In this document: positions 10,632 to 16,271 of the stretch, piece by piece
How positions within the stretch are numbered: position 1 is the first letter of the stretch
Layout: every line of letters starts with the position of its first letter
From: Corallococcus macrosporus DSM 14697
GTDB taxonomy: Bacteria; Myxococcota; Myxococcia; Myxococcales; Myxococcaceae
NCBI RefSeq assembly: GCF_002305895.1
Contig: NZ_CP022203.1
Coordinates: 660,501-724,500, forward strand
DNA length: 64,000 nucleotides
Direction of reading: 5' to 3'
The notes under the pieces: generated by a model
Database searches by the model: none
What the model saw: the letters and a program-made list of their open reading frames with translations, nothing else
What the model was told of the DNA's origin: nothing
Made by a program: the position numbers and the translations under genes

Positions 10632-12311
<1,680 letters not shown>

Positions 12312-12332
12312 GCTGCTGGTAGGACCTTTCTT

Positions 12333-12354
12333 CCCTCCCCTGGCCAGGGGAGGG
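12333..12354. repeat. Perfect 22-bp palindrome after ettA
   Basis: Bases 12333-12343 (CCCTCCCCTGG) are the exact reverse complement of 12344-12354. It sits in the 69-bp gap between ettA and the ATPase gene. It could fold into a stem with no real loop and act in termination, or be a protein site at the left border of the low-GC module. There is no T-run after it. Confidence 0.5.
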
Positions 12355-12380
12355 GAGAATGGGGGACGGGAGGCGTTGCC

Positions 12381-13583
12381 GTGATCGAGAAGGTCCAGTT
12401 CCGCAACTTCAAGGCGTACCGCTCGCACGACCTGGAGCTGGAGCCCTTCACGGTCCTGGTGGGCCCGAACGCGTCGGGGAAGACGACGCTGCTCGAGGGG
12501 CTGAGCCTGCTATCGGCAGTTGCAAGTAACCTGTTGGCAGGCGGGCGCTCCTACTGGCCTGGCCCCCTCGTTCAGTCTCATGGGAGTGATGCACCTGTTG
12601 AGATTGGGGCAGTTGGGAAATGGGGAGGCATTGACGGCTCCGTAACGGCTATCAGTCCATCTGAGGCAGTGCAGAGGGCAGACACGCTGACCCTTCCATT
12701 CTGGATTCGCGGCGAGTTTGGAGGGGGGCGTTTTGGGATCGAAGGAAACCATCGCGGCGCCTCGCGCACTCTTCCGTTAGACCTCGGATATCAATCGGGC
12801 AAACTCCGGAGTGATGTGGAGCCCTCGCAGTTGGGACATTTGCGGGCAGCGCTAAGTGCCACTGCTATCTTGCGGTTTGTCCCAAGGCTCCTGGCGGCGG
12901 CTTCATACAGCGATGAAGTAGTGCCCTCCCTGGCCTCGGATGGAAGCGGCTTCGCGTCCGTGTTGGCATATCTCAAGCTGAGCCAAGACGAGGTATTCAA
13001 CGAAATTGAGTCCGCCCTCAGAGAGATCGTTCCTTCGGTACGGCGTATTCGTATCGAGCGCGCCGCCGTTGAGCAAACGGCTATTCGTACCATTGCTTTA
13101 GACGAACAGCGGCGCAATGTTCCAGAGAAGAGGACGCTTTGGGGCAACCAAGTTGTTTTCGACATGAAGGGCGCGAAGGGAGTTGCGCCTGATTCGGCGG
13201 GCGAGGGCACTTTGATGGTGCTCGGGTTGCTCACTGCGATCATGGGCCCATTGAAGCCCCGGCTTGTCCTCTTGGACGACATTGAGTTGTCACTCCACCC
13301 GGCGGCGCAATCGCGCCTCATCGCGGCCCTGCGCGCCATCCAGAAGCGTGACCCCCAACTGCAGATCATCGCCACCAGTCACTCGCCCTTCATCCTGAAC
13401 GACCTCGACCCGAAGGAGGTCCGCATGACCTACCTCGCGGACAACGGGTTCGCGCGGTGCGAGAAGCTGACCGCGCACCCCGAGTTCGAGAAGTGGAAGG
13501 GTCTGATGGCGCCGGGCGAGTTCTGGAGCAGCGTGGGCGAGGACTGGATTGGAAAGCTGGCTGAGGCTGCTCCGAATGAGTGA
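12381..13583 (+). CDS. AAA/RecF-like ATPase, first gene of a candidate defence pair
   Basis: 400 residues from GTG at 12381. SMC/RecF/OLD-type ATPase head: Walker A GPNASGKT (28-35), signature DSAGEGTL (271-278), Walker B LVLLDDIE (295-302), and the His switch ATSHSP (331-336). There is no coiled coil of SMC size and no TOPRIM at the C-terminus, unlike full-length OLD proteins. The next gene overlaps by 8 bp and carries TOPRIM-like residues, so the pair may be a split OLD-like system. Bases ~12510-13320 fall to about 50-60% GC (60 bases from 13081 hold 29 G+C), whereas both ends of the gene are near 65-72%, suggesting mosaic origin. Comparable ATPase/nuclease pairs in other bacteria are anti-phage; that role is inferred. 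Confidence 0.85.
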   Translation: MIEKVQFRNFKAYRSHDLELEPFTVLVGPNASGKTTLLEGLSLLSAVASNLLAGGRSYWPGPLVQSHGSDAPVEIGAVGKWGGIDGSVTAISPSEAVQRADTLTLPFWIRGEFGGGRFGIEGNHRGASRTLPLDLGYQSGKLRSDVEPSQLGHLRAALSATAILRFVPRLLAAASYSDEVVPSLASDGSGFASVLAYLKLSQDEVFNEIESALREIVPSVRRIRIERAAVEQTAIRTIALDEQRRNVPEKRTLWGNQVVFDMKGAKGVAPDSAGEGTLMVLGLLTAIMGPLKPRLVLLDDIELSLHPAAQSRLIAALRAIQKRDPQLQIIATSHSPFILNDLDPKEVRMTYLADNGFARCEKLTAHPEFEKWKGLMAPGEFWSSVGEDWIGKLAEAAPNE

Positions 13584-14334
13584 GCCCTCCTTCGCGTTCG
13601 GAGTCGTCTGCGAAGCGCGTGCGGACCAACTCACGGCATGCATGATCGCAAACCGAGTCATCGATGAGCACGTTGACTGGGTGGCCCCCGAATTTCGCGA
13701 CACCTTCTATCGGTGGCGTGGTGTCAGCGCGTCTCCAGACGACAGGTTCGTGCGGTGGCAGAAAGTCCGGGAAGAAAGCGCGCTCCGCGGCATCAAGCCG
13801 ATCTTCGGACGTTTCGGAGGAGAATCCGGGAAGCCCGATGCGCTCATGACAAGGCAGGCGCTGCTGCTTTTCGCTTCCCTCGACAGTCGGCCAGATGCCG
13901 TCGTGCTGGTGCGTGACAGTGACGGCGACCCTTCACGTCGAGATGGCTTGGAGCAAGCGCGGAGCACGCACGCATGGCCCTTCAAGGTGGTCATCGCCCT
14001 GGCAGAGCCAAAGCGCGAGGCATGGGTGCTTTCCGGCTTTGAGCCTCAAAATCCTGATGAGAGCGCTCGTCACCAACGTCTCAAGGCGCGGCTTTCGATC
14101 GACCCGTTGGTCAGGTCCCACGAACTCGACGCTCGCGAGCATGGCGCGAAGACGGACATCAAGCGCGCGCTCACGGAGTTGACCCAGGACGACTGGAACC
14201 GCGAGCAGCAGTGCATCGAAGAGTCGCCGTTGGAGCTCCTGAAGCAGCGAGGCGAGAGAAACGGCCTCGCTGCCTTCATGAAGGAGATCCGCGAACACCT
14301 CGTTCCCATCTTCGGCCCGGTTGCTCCCAGGTAG
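13576..14334 (+). CDS. TOPRIM-like/DUF4276-type partner of the ATPase
   Basis: 252 residues from ATG at 13576, overlapping the ATPase stop by 8 bp (ATGAGTGA), so translation is coupled. Near the N-terminus 'FGVVCEARADQ' supplies Glu13, and 'AVVLVRDSDGDPS' supplies Asp114, Asp116 and Asp118. A glutamate followed by a D-x-D after a hydrophobic strand is the TOPRIM metal-binding pattern. 'KVVIALAEPKREAWVLSG' resembles the region after DxD in DUF4276/RloB-type proteins. There is no signal peptide or membrane helix. GC is around 57-60% in sampled lines, low for this window. A nuclease activated or held in check by the ATPase is the natural hypothesis. I could not assign it to a named defence system with certainty. 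Confidence 0.75.
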   Translation: MSEPSFAFGVVCEARADQLTACMIANRVIDEHVDWVAPEFRDTFYRWRGVSASPDDRFVRWQKVREESALRGIKPIFGRFGGESGKPDALMTRQALLLFASLDSRPDAVVLVRDSDGDPSRRDGLEQARSTHAWPFKVVIALAEPKREAWVLSGFEPQNPDESARHQRLKARLSIDPLVRSHELDAREHGAKTDIKRALTELTQDDWNREQQCIEESPLELLKQRGERNGLAAFMKEIREHLVPIFGPVAPR

Positions 14335-14361
14335 GAACGAGCCAGGCCCAGAGAAGCCAGC

Positions 14362-14607
14362 TCAGCAGGCGTCGATGCACTCCACCGTGTAGAACGGCGT
14401 CACGTCCTCGGTGGCATGGCAGTCCGGGTTCGCGCAGGAGCAGTGCAGCGTCATCACATACTCCGTGAGCGCCTCGTCATTGTAATACGTATACGTACAG
14501 GCCAGCCGGGACGACTGCGCCTCGGCGGTGGGCGTATAGCCCAGACTGCCGACGCCAATGCCTCCGGGAACCGCCAGCACCGCGACCGCCATGAGCAGCT
14601 TCTTCAT
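14362..14607 (-). CDS. Small Cys-rich secreted protein
   Basis: 81 residues with a clear signal peptide (MKKLLMAVAVLAVPGGIGVG, likely cleaved after AEA at about residue 30). The mature ~50 residues hold six Cys ('LHCSCANPDCHA', 'VECIDAC' and one in 'LACTYTYYNDE'), enough for three disulfides. The 'CTYTYYNDEALTEYV' opening resembles small secreted DUF6289-type proteins, a weak match. GGAG lies a few bases before the ATG. It converges on the TOPRIM-like gene with 27 bp between. Role unknown. Confidence 0.65.
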   Translation of the reverse strand: MKKLLMAVAVLAVPGGIGVGSLGYTPTAEAQSSRLACTYTYYNDEALTEYVMTLHCSCANPDCHATEDVTPFYTVECIDAC

Positions 14608-14657: not shown

Positions 14658-15776
14658 TCAGGGCCGGTACTCCCAATGCCAGGGCTCGGACGGGACGGTG
14701 CGCACGAAGCCGAAGTTCCTCGCGTTGTTCGCCAGCCATCGGTACGTCGAGGTGCCCGTGCCGCCCGTGTTGATGTCCACCGCGATGCCGCCCTGATGGT
14801 TGGAGTAGCCCGGAGGCGCGGCCAGGTTGCCCGTACCGTTCTTGTACGCGCGGTACAGCGCCTCCTGCTCCGCCATGCTGCGGAAGCCGCTGTTCACCTT
14901 CAGGGTGATGCCCTGCGCGCGCGCCGCCGCGTGCATGCGGTTGAACGCCGCCGCCGCGTCCGTGCGCATCTCCTTGCCGTTGGGCACGGGCGACAGGGAA
15001 ATCCGCCGAGGCTGTCCATTCACATAGCCCGTGACGACCCGGCCGCCACCGCCACCGCCCGGGTTGGTGACGGGGCCCTGGACGTTGATGCCCAGCTTGT
15101 CCCACGTCTTGGGGCCCACGATGCCGTCCGCCGTCAGGCCGCGGGACTGCTGGAAGGCCTTCACCGCCGACAGCGTCTTGGGGCCGAACACGCCGTCCGC
15201 CGTGCCCGACGAGAACCCCAACTGGTTGAGCCGCTGCTGGAGCGCCCGCACCGGCTCGCCCCGCGCGCCATTGCGCAGCGTGGGGCCCGAGCCACCGCTG
15301 ACCCCCGCCGAGTTGAGGGCCTGCCACGTCTTGGGCCCGACGACGCCGTCCACCTGGAGCCCTCGGGCGCGCTGGAAGGACTGCACCGCCGACTGTGTCT
15401 TGGGACCGAACACGCCGTCCGCCGCGCCCGGGTTGAAACCCGCGGCCTTGAGCTTGTTCTGGAGCGTCGTCACCGCCGCGCCCCGCGCGCCGTTGCGCAG
15501 CGTGGGGGTCGCGCCCGCCGAGCTGAGGGCGCCCCTCGTCTTGGGCCCGGCGATGCCGTCCACCTGGAGCCCACGCGCGCGCTGAAAGGCCTGCACCGCC
15601 GCCAGCGTCTTGGGGCCGAACACGCCATCCGAGGCGCCCGGGTTGAAGCCCGCGGCCCGGAGCTGGTTCTGGAGCGTCGTCACGGCCGCGCCGCGCGCAC
15701 CCATGCGCAACGTGGGCGAGGCAGAGCGGGACGCGCTGCTGGACGCAGCCGCGGAGGAGCGGGCAATGGCTACCAT
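14658..15776 (-). CDS. M15B D,D-carboxypeptidase/endopeptidase with three peptidoglycan-binding repeats
   Basis: 372 residues from ATG at 15776 (MVAIARSS), chosen for its AAGAG ribosome site; an ATG at 15818 is upstream in frame. Three PG_binding_1 repeats lie at about 21-85, 90-155 and 165-230, each with 'DGVFGPKT'. The first two are almost identical, with a 69-residue period. A Gly-rich linker (239-245) precedes a VanY-type M15 domain: SGFRS (296-300), SNHQGGIAVDI with Zn ligands His327 and Asp334, and EPWHWEY with Glu364 and His367. The zinc site is complete. There is no signal peptide, which is odd for a wall enzyme and recalls endolysins or effectors delivered by a secretion system. Confidence 0.88.
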   Translation of the reverse strand: MVAIARSSAAASSSASRSASPTLRMGARGAAVTTLQNQLRAAGFNPGASDGVFGPKTLAAVQAFQRARGLQVDGIAGPKTRGALSSAGATPTLRNGARGAAVTTLQNKLKAAGFNPGAADGVFGPKTQSAVQSFQRARGLQVDGVVGPKTWQALNSAGVSGGSGPTLRNGARGEPVRALQQRLNQLGFSSGTADGVFGPKTLSAVKAFQQSRGLTADGIVGPKTWDKLGINVQGPVTNPGGGGGGRVVTGYVNGQPRRISLSPVPNGKEMRTDAAAAFNRMHAAARAQGITLKVNSGFRSMAEQEALYRAYKNGTGNLAAPPGYSNHQGGIAVDINTGGTGTSTYRWLANNARNFGFVRTVPSEPWHWEYRP

Positions 15777-16271
15777 GGGGGACTCTTCCCTTGTGAAGAA
15801 GAATGGAGTTGGACCCATTTTCCCAGCCGCTCAAAGAAAGTTGCCTCGGATTGCGTCAAAAGCGCGTTTCAATCCTGTCACGCGCCTGGGTTGAGCTGCG
15901 TTTCGTGGCGTGACGGAAAAGTTGCATCAAGGTGGCATGGGTTGGATGGGGGTCGTGGCATTCATTCCCGCGGAAATCTTCCAATGGAATGCAGTCCTTG
16001 CCTTCCCGCCCGGGGCTTCGGGCGTGCTCGTGCAGTCCAGAAGTCCGCGGATGGCGGCACGGATGGCGCAGCCGGCCAAGTCGGTCTCCTGAGGCGTCTG
16101 GTTTGTCATTGCCCGCGCGGACGCTGGCCGCGTTCCGGCGGCGGGCTCCCCGCGCATGACGCTGTTCGTTCAATCCGATGGGAGGACGTTCATGGCGAAT
16201 ATGACCGATGCGCGCGCAGGCTGGTGGCCACGGCCACCCGTGACGCGTCCGGCGCGCGCTGAGCCACGTCC
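15777..16271. other. Intergenic between the M15 gene and the LanM remnant
   Basis: 495 bp. The first ~130 bp are the upstream region of the M15 gene and are relatively AT-rich. Several short open frames exist on both strands (one from 16108 leftward, 'MTNQTPQETDLAGC') but none has a good ribosome site or family match. From about 16197 a plus-strand frame reads 'CARRLVATATRDASG', which could be decayed lanthipeptide-synthetase sequence. No lanthipeptide precursor was found. Confidence 0.45.

Follow-up and report, generated by a model that had tools for sequence, protein, structure and literature searches.

An OLD/PtuA-like ATPase and a predicted TOPRIM-type nuclease behind ettA in Myxococcaceae: a probable phage-defence module related to HEC-01

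Introduction

Dyads of an OLD-type ABC ATPase and a TOPRIM protein are a kind of module that has already been described (PMC12839542; PMC12409363), and in a survey of BREX loci such modules are presented as effectors that back up BREX (PMC12839542). In PARIS, the ATPase forms an oligomer that keeps the TOPRIM nuclease sequestered, and release of the nuclease is triggered by a phage protein (PMC12409363), while the class 2 OLD protein Bp OLD binds two metals via E400, E404, D455, D457, T506 and E508 and needs K562 (PMC6755086). The HEC systems, to which the locus studied here leads, were found through ‘guilt by embedding’, and some of them (e.g., HEC-06) have proved active against viruses (PMC12988326).

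Here we evaluate two overlapping genes in 64,000 nucleotides of the Corallococcus macrosporus DSM 14697 genome (“the window” below, meaning that whole stretch). A first-pass annotation, made from the letters alone, had read these genes as a split OLD-like system, acquired by transfer and perhaps new. We interpret them as very probably a phage-defence module related to the candidate system HEC-01.

Results

The two genes form a conserved pair

The genes concerned are these:

10635..12311, + strand: ettA-type ABC-F gene, lying immediately upstream of the pair in all 21 close copies
12381..13583, + strand: OLD/PtuA-like ABC ATPase gene (400 aa, GTG start), putative sensor and regulator
13576..14334, + strand: gene of the predicted TOPRIM-type nuclease partner (252 aa, ATG start), of an unnamed family

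The ATPase and partner genes overlap by 8 bp (13576-13583), and both are lower in GC than their surroundings, as had been noticed at first pass, with 0.606 for the ATPase and 0.621 for the partner (GC3 0.72 and 0.735) against 0.670 for ettA upstream (GC3 0.952), 0.717 for the downstream gene (GC3 0.917) and 0.714 for the window. Across relative loci, the ATPase gene lies directly upstream of the partner gene in 54 of 55, the single exception (L055) being a short, fragmentary match and one further locus (L028) a remnant, and dN/dS values of 0.07-0.23 indicate purifying selection on both genes, so that adjacency and selection together make the pair more than a chance arrangement. Across 19 close copies, identities of the core ATPase and of the partner are also correlated (Mantel test, r 0.46, p 0.001), a pattern that shared ancestry alone could also yield.

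The ATPase resembles defence ATPases and carries a hypervariable segment

Two parts of the ATPase gene recur in what follows:

12501..12860, + strand: hypervariable segment (residues 41-160), candidate trigger-sensing region
13512..13529, + strand: codons of PGEFWS, a motif near the C-terminus (residues 378-383) with the G-E-x-W tail also seen in HEC-01A ATPases

Four ATPase motifs were located (GPNASGKT at 28-35, DSAGEGTL at 271-278, LVLLDDIE at 295-302 and ATSHSP at 331-336), with key residues invariant or nearly so across 24 homologues. Family searches matched the protein to Pfam AAA_21 (1e-29) and AAA_15 and revealed RecF/SMC similarity (Pfam, NCBIfam), and in PADLOC its best model was HEC-01A PDLC04178 (E 9.7e-36, bits 121.6, in two stretches), with several further HEC-01A models matching as well. 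The closest fold to its AF2 model (pLDDT 88) is PtuA of Septu and retrons (Z 22 with 305 residues aligned; Foldseek E 6e-15). The G-E-x-W tail, for which the chance is about 0.018 per tail, occurs in 30/30 ATPases of this pair's family and 24/27 ATPases linked to DUF4276 proteins, versus 0/7 linked to DUF3226 proteins.

Conservation along the ATPase is strikingly uneven: in a profile of 16 copies, almost all of them located at the ettA site, it falls to 0.02-0.50 over residues 41-160, compared with 0.92-0.97 over residues 1-40 and 0.63-0.93 over residues 161-400. This variable middle is likely the sensor.

The partner has a TOPRIM-like topology and a conserved putative active site

The 252-residue partner matches nothing in Pfam (OLD-like TOPRIM included), NCBIfam or PADLOC, in agreement with the first-pass statement that it belongs to no named family. 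Its AF2 model, built from 23 sequences (pLDDT 92, pTM 0.90), shows a strand (6-12) followed by E13, a helix, a strand (45-48), helices, a strand (108-114) bearing D114-x-D116, a further helix, a strand (137-143) and a helix (147-153) carrying E148. In this model the order of secondary structure is the TOPRIM order, with a Glu after strand 1, DxD after the third core strand and an alternating beta/alpha fold. Among 26 diverse partner sequences, six residues never vary (E13, D114, D116, E148, W150, K196) and D17 hardly does, and we therefore bear out the residues singled out at first pass (Glu13, Asp114-x-Asp116) and propose E13, D17, D114, D116, E148 and K192/K196 as the putative active site. 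Residues E13, D17, D114, D116, E148 and K196 are the same in kind and order as E400, E404, D455, D457, E508 and K562 of Bp OLD, a correspondence drawn from order and alignment range rather than from residue-by-residue superposition.

Whole-chain fold comparisons score weakly. In a VIA search, the best match was to a MID domain (Z 8.7), and three OLD C-terminal regions (6nk8, 6njv and 6njw; 174-178 residues, Z 6.1-7.1) were among the listed matches with the longest alignments; the 6nk8 alignment (Z 7.1, about which value VIA scores are in the range of common folds) places model residues 4..247 on chain residues 391..594. Foldseek against PDB and BFVD returned nothing significant (best E 0.024), and searches of PDB sequences with the partner and with partner profiles gave chance matches only. 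Given these scores, the TOPRIM call rests on topology and residue pattern, and of the structural check suggested at first pass it is the modelled topology that speaks for the fold. Taken with the family and fold matches of the ATPase, topology and invariant residues uphold the earlier description of an OLD/RecF-like ATPase with a separate TOPRIM-type nuclease.

The same features bear on a DNA-repair pair analogous to RecF-RecR, with the partner as a non-catalytic TOPRIM protein, a reading to which the RecF/SMC similarity of the ATPase and the TOPRIM-type fold of the partner would both conform. RecR has a TOPRIM domain without a nuclease site. The partner, unlike RecR, keeps all metal-site residues, and the patchy distribution (below) and the hypervariable ATPase segment also argue against a repair role, which we consider highly improbable.

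The pair is related to HEC-01 without matching it in full

Proteins of DUF4276 (HEC-01B in PADLOC) and DUF3226 (PDC-M38B) likewise follow such ATPases in the phylum. The window partner had no PADLOC match to the HEC-01B (DUF4276) models at E<=1; among its relatives, 10/26 weakly matched HEC-01B model PDLC04196 (best 3.6e-4), and the partner profile aligned with DUF4276 at an hhalign probability of 7%, a weak score, over the stretch from DxD to E148. With the ATPase matching HEC-01A and the partner lacking a HEC-01B match, the PADLOC check advised at first pass thus recovered one gene of the two, and by these models the pair is a relative of HEC-01, not a member. Elsewhere, the same genome (G000) carries one DUF3226 and one DUF4276 gene, L174 (G000:C1:4683444-4684193) and G000:C1:8401297-8401827.

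Close copies occupy a fixed site that is often empty

Partner genes were found in 32/195 genomes and 11/90 genera of the phylum, with relatives also in Sorangium and Planctomycetota records and, within the family Myxococcaceae, in named records of Corallococcus, Archangium, Hyalangium, Pyxidicoccus and Myxococcus. In Sorangium cellulosum So ceGT47 (L054:10001-10701), the partner match is split across two frames, probably reflecting a frameshifted gene. We found no relatives in plasmids or phages (tblastn) or in viral contigs (scan).

Comparison of genomes at the ettA site delimits one segment:

12314..14361, no strand: presence/absence segment, replaced in close relatives by about 45-60 bp

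The close copies, all in Myxococcaceae, span 6 genera (4/27 genomes of the window's genus, 9/16 of a second genus, g6, and 3, 2, 2 and 1 in four others) and cluster by genus. Four genomes of the window's genus (G124, G125, G133 and G136) show the empty site, with ettA joined to the next gene. Two genomes hold broken copies: in G065 (L020, about 1465-2022), at the ettA site, the ATPase is intact while an in-frame deletion in the partner removes E13 and D17, so that the nuclease site is lost, and in G063 (L028) only remnants of both genes are left.

This distribution weighs on the possibility that the pair is a housekeeping or translation-stress accessory of ettA, an ATPase-controlled nuclease that would trim RNA and work with the ABC-F factor EttA. 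Every one of the 21 close copies follows ettA directly on its 3' side, and no close copy occurs at another site, with the ATPase starting 10-168 bp past the ettA stop in those where the start was read, and such constancy favours the accessory role. A fixed housekeeping context was also what the first-pass annotation had named as telling against defence; it holds for the close copies, but as an objection it fails because 23/27 genomes of the window's genus, like many further Myxococcaceae, lack the pair at this site and because divergent copies sit at other sites, one of them inside BREX. With broken copies in two genomes as well, we regard an ettA accessory as very unlikely.

The ettA site was also considered as a defence hotspot and rejected as such, its other cargo being ordinary (GntR/aminotransferase regulator, aldehyde dehydrogenase, histidine kinase, ABC exporter and the like). 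Just behind ettA, G126 has a gene whose 877-aa product contains a prokaryotic RING finger (Prok-RING_4; L108:2061-4691). In the window, the gap between ettA and the ATPase gene (12311-12381) contains a strong GC-rich hairpin (CCCTCCCCTGGCCAGGGGAGGG) with no T-run, and in several relatives this gap is only 10-35 bp and free of the hairpin, making co-transcription with ettA possible. Downstream, a small ORF on the - strand (14362-14607; 81 aa, Cys-containing, secreted-looking) borders the presence/absence segment, its matching stretch partly missing in G124, and is followed by a peptidoglycan-binding/VanY gene (14661-15818, - strand) whose product has 386 aa in the window versus about 302 aa in relatives, which suggests a copy-number change of peptidoglycan-binding repeats.

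Alleles at the site are mosaic

Comparing the window genome with G119, we found dS of 0.74 for the ATPase and 1.15 for the partner against 0.10-0.22 in the flanks (ettA 0.11, downstream gene 0.22, htpX 0.12), and we accordingly rejected strictly vertical inheritance as a complete account; the pair's weaker codon bias (GC3 0.72) may nonetheless contribute to the difference. Synonymous differences are blockwise: pS is about 0.2 towards either end of the ATPase gene, 0.5-0.7 in its middle and 0.4-0.7 in the partner; a pair of copies from genus g6 shows a block pattern distinct from this one. Mosaic synonymous divergence and the hypervariable ATPase residues 41-160 suggest that alleles recombined at a fixed site. 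Acquisition by transfer, as proposed at first pass, is not sustained as an event in this strain, since 21 genomes from 6 genera of Myxococcaceae have the pair at one site, directly 3' of ettA, and the copies cluster by genus; exchange between alleles at that site does look frequent. As a bolder and rather doubtful extension, the site may be a fixed Myxococcaceae immune locus in which homologous recombination swaps sensor segment and nuclease allele between species while the ATPase ends stay near-constant, the module being possibly co-transcribed with ettA and on guard against phages that attack translation.

One divergent relative lies inside a BREX operon

Surveying neighbourhoods for defence genes, as the first-pass annotation had recommended, we found a clear defence context in one of about 18 divergent loci (L049), where, in a Pirellula-type MAG, the pair is embedded between pglX and pglZ of a BREX operon (brxC-pglX-[pair]-pglZ-brxL) and a gajA-like gene comes after the operon. 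A DpdF neighbour was rejected as a second defence context, the DpdF model matching all 14 control genomes; where a copy of the pair is close by, the best match to this model is a helicase of RecQ size, in G092.

These observations also bear on a toxin-antitoxin or plasmid/MGE-exclusion module that would use the same machinery with a trigger other than phage. The Pfam family AAA_21 is named for AbiEii, and the G065 copy, its nuclease site lost beside an intact ATPase, looks as expected for a costly nuclease. Against this, the ATPase is similar to those that act as sensors in defence systems, and the relative with the most telling location lies in BREX. We consider such a module quite unlikely.

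Discussion

Patchy presence, the hypervariable segment, mosaic alleles, the BREX-embedded relative and the relation to HEC-01 together support a phage-immune reading. Weighing against it are the single clear defence context among about 18 divergent loci, the ordinary nature of the other cargo behind ettA, the failure to find relatives in phages, plasmids or viral contigs, and the weak scores of the partner in whole-chain fold searches and in the profile comparison with DUF4276. We put the probability at roughly 0.78 that the pair is a two-component, phage-triggered immune module of an OLD-family ABC ATPase and a separate TOPRIM nuclease, a divergent relative of HEC-01. By analogy with PARIS, we propose that the ATPase acts as the sensor, that the two-metal nuclease is held in check, and that infection activates it. 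The ATPase would oligomerise, binding and restraining the nuclease, probably via its conserved C-terminal PGEFW tail, and would sense an infection signal through residues 41-160; on sensing, it would release or activate the nuclease, which would cut nucleic acid with a two-metal TOPRIM site (E13, D17, D114, D116, E148, K192/K196) and so stop the phage or the infected cell. As in PARIS, the substrate would be host nucleic acid, for instance tRNA, with slightly higher probability than phage DNA.

If so, the pair extends the OLD-ABC/TOPRIM immune modules by a TOPRIM-type nuclease lineage that is unlisted and escapes Pfam, NCBIfam and PADLOC models, ties HEC-01 candidates to a conserved active site accessible to mutagenesis, and gives HEC-01-type systems a testable sensor in an ATPase segment that differs between alleles at one fixed locus.

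Among known systems, PARIS (AriA/AriB) likewise combines an ABC ATPase sensor with a separate TOPRIM nuclease (PMC12409363), but no AriB or DUF4435 match was listed for any of the 26 partner-family members. Class 2 OLD and GajA share the domain pair and, judging by order and alignment range, probably the kinds and order of metal-site residues (PMC6755086); in OLD (classes 1-3), however, ATPase and TOPRIM are fused, whereas the window has separate overlapping genes, and no fused form was noticed among the relative loci. Gabija differs in that no GajB UvrD-like helicase adjoins the pair, its neighbours being ettA and the peptidoglycan-binding/VanY gene. Septu (PtuAB) is the closest in ATPase fold, through PtuA, yet PtuB is an HNH nuclease, while the partner is TOPRIM-like in its model and has no HNH Pfam match. 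PDC-M38 also places a TOPRIM-type partner (DUF3226) after an OLD-like ATPase, but its ATPases lack the G-E-x-W tail and the partner profile comparison is weak.

HEC-01 comes nearest, with two adjoining genes in the same order, the HEC-01A ATPase match, the G-E-x-W tail and, in the partner, the same E...D...E...K pattern as HEC-01B; it differs where the window partner has DxD and KREAW motifs and DUF4276 has D and HEFEALLF. The earlier label of a split OLD-like system is largely right as to kind and imprecise as to kinship, the nearest relatives being the two-gene HEC-01A/HEC-01B candidates and the nearest ATPase fold PtuA. The suggestion of novelty holds for the variant and not for the kind, OLD-ABC/TOPRIM dyads having been described (PMC12839542; PMC12409363): within this known combination of an OLD ATPase and a separate TOPRIM nuclease, the pair stands as a relative of the candidate defence system HEC-01, divergent and unlisted.
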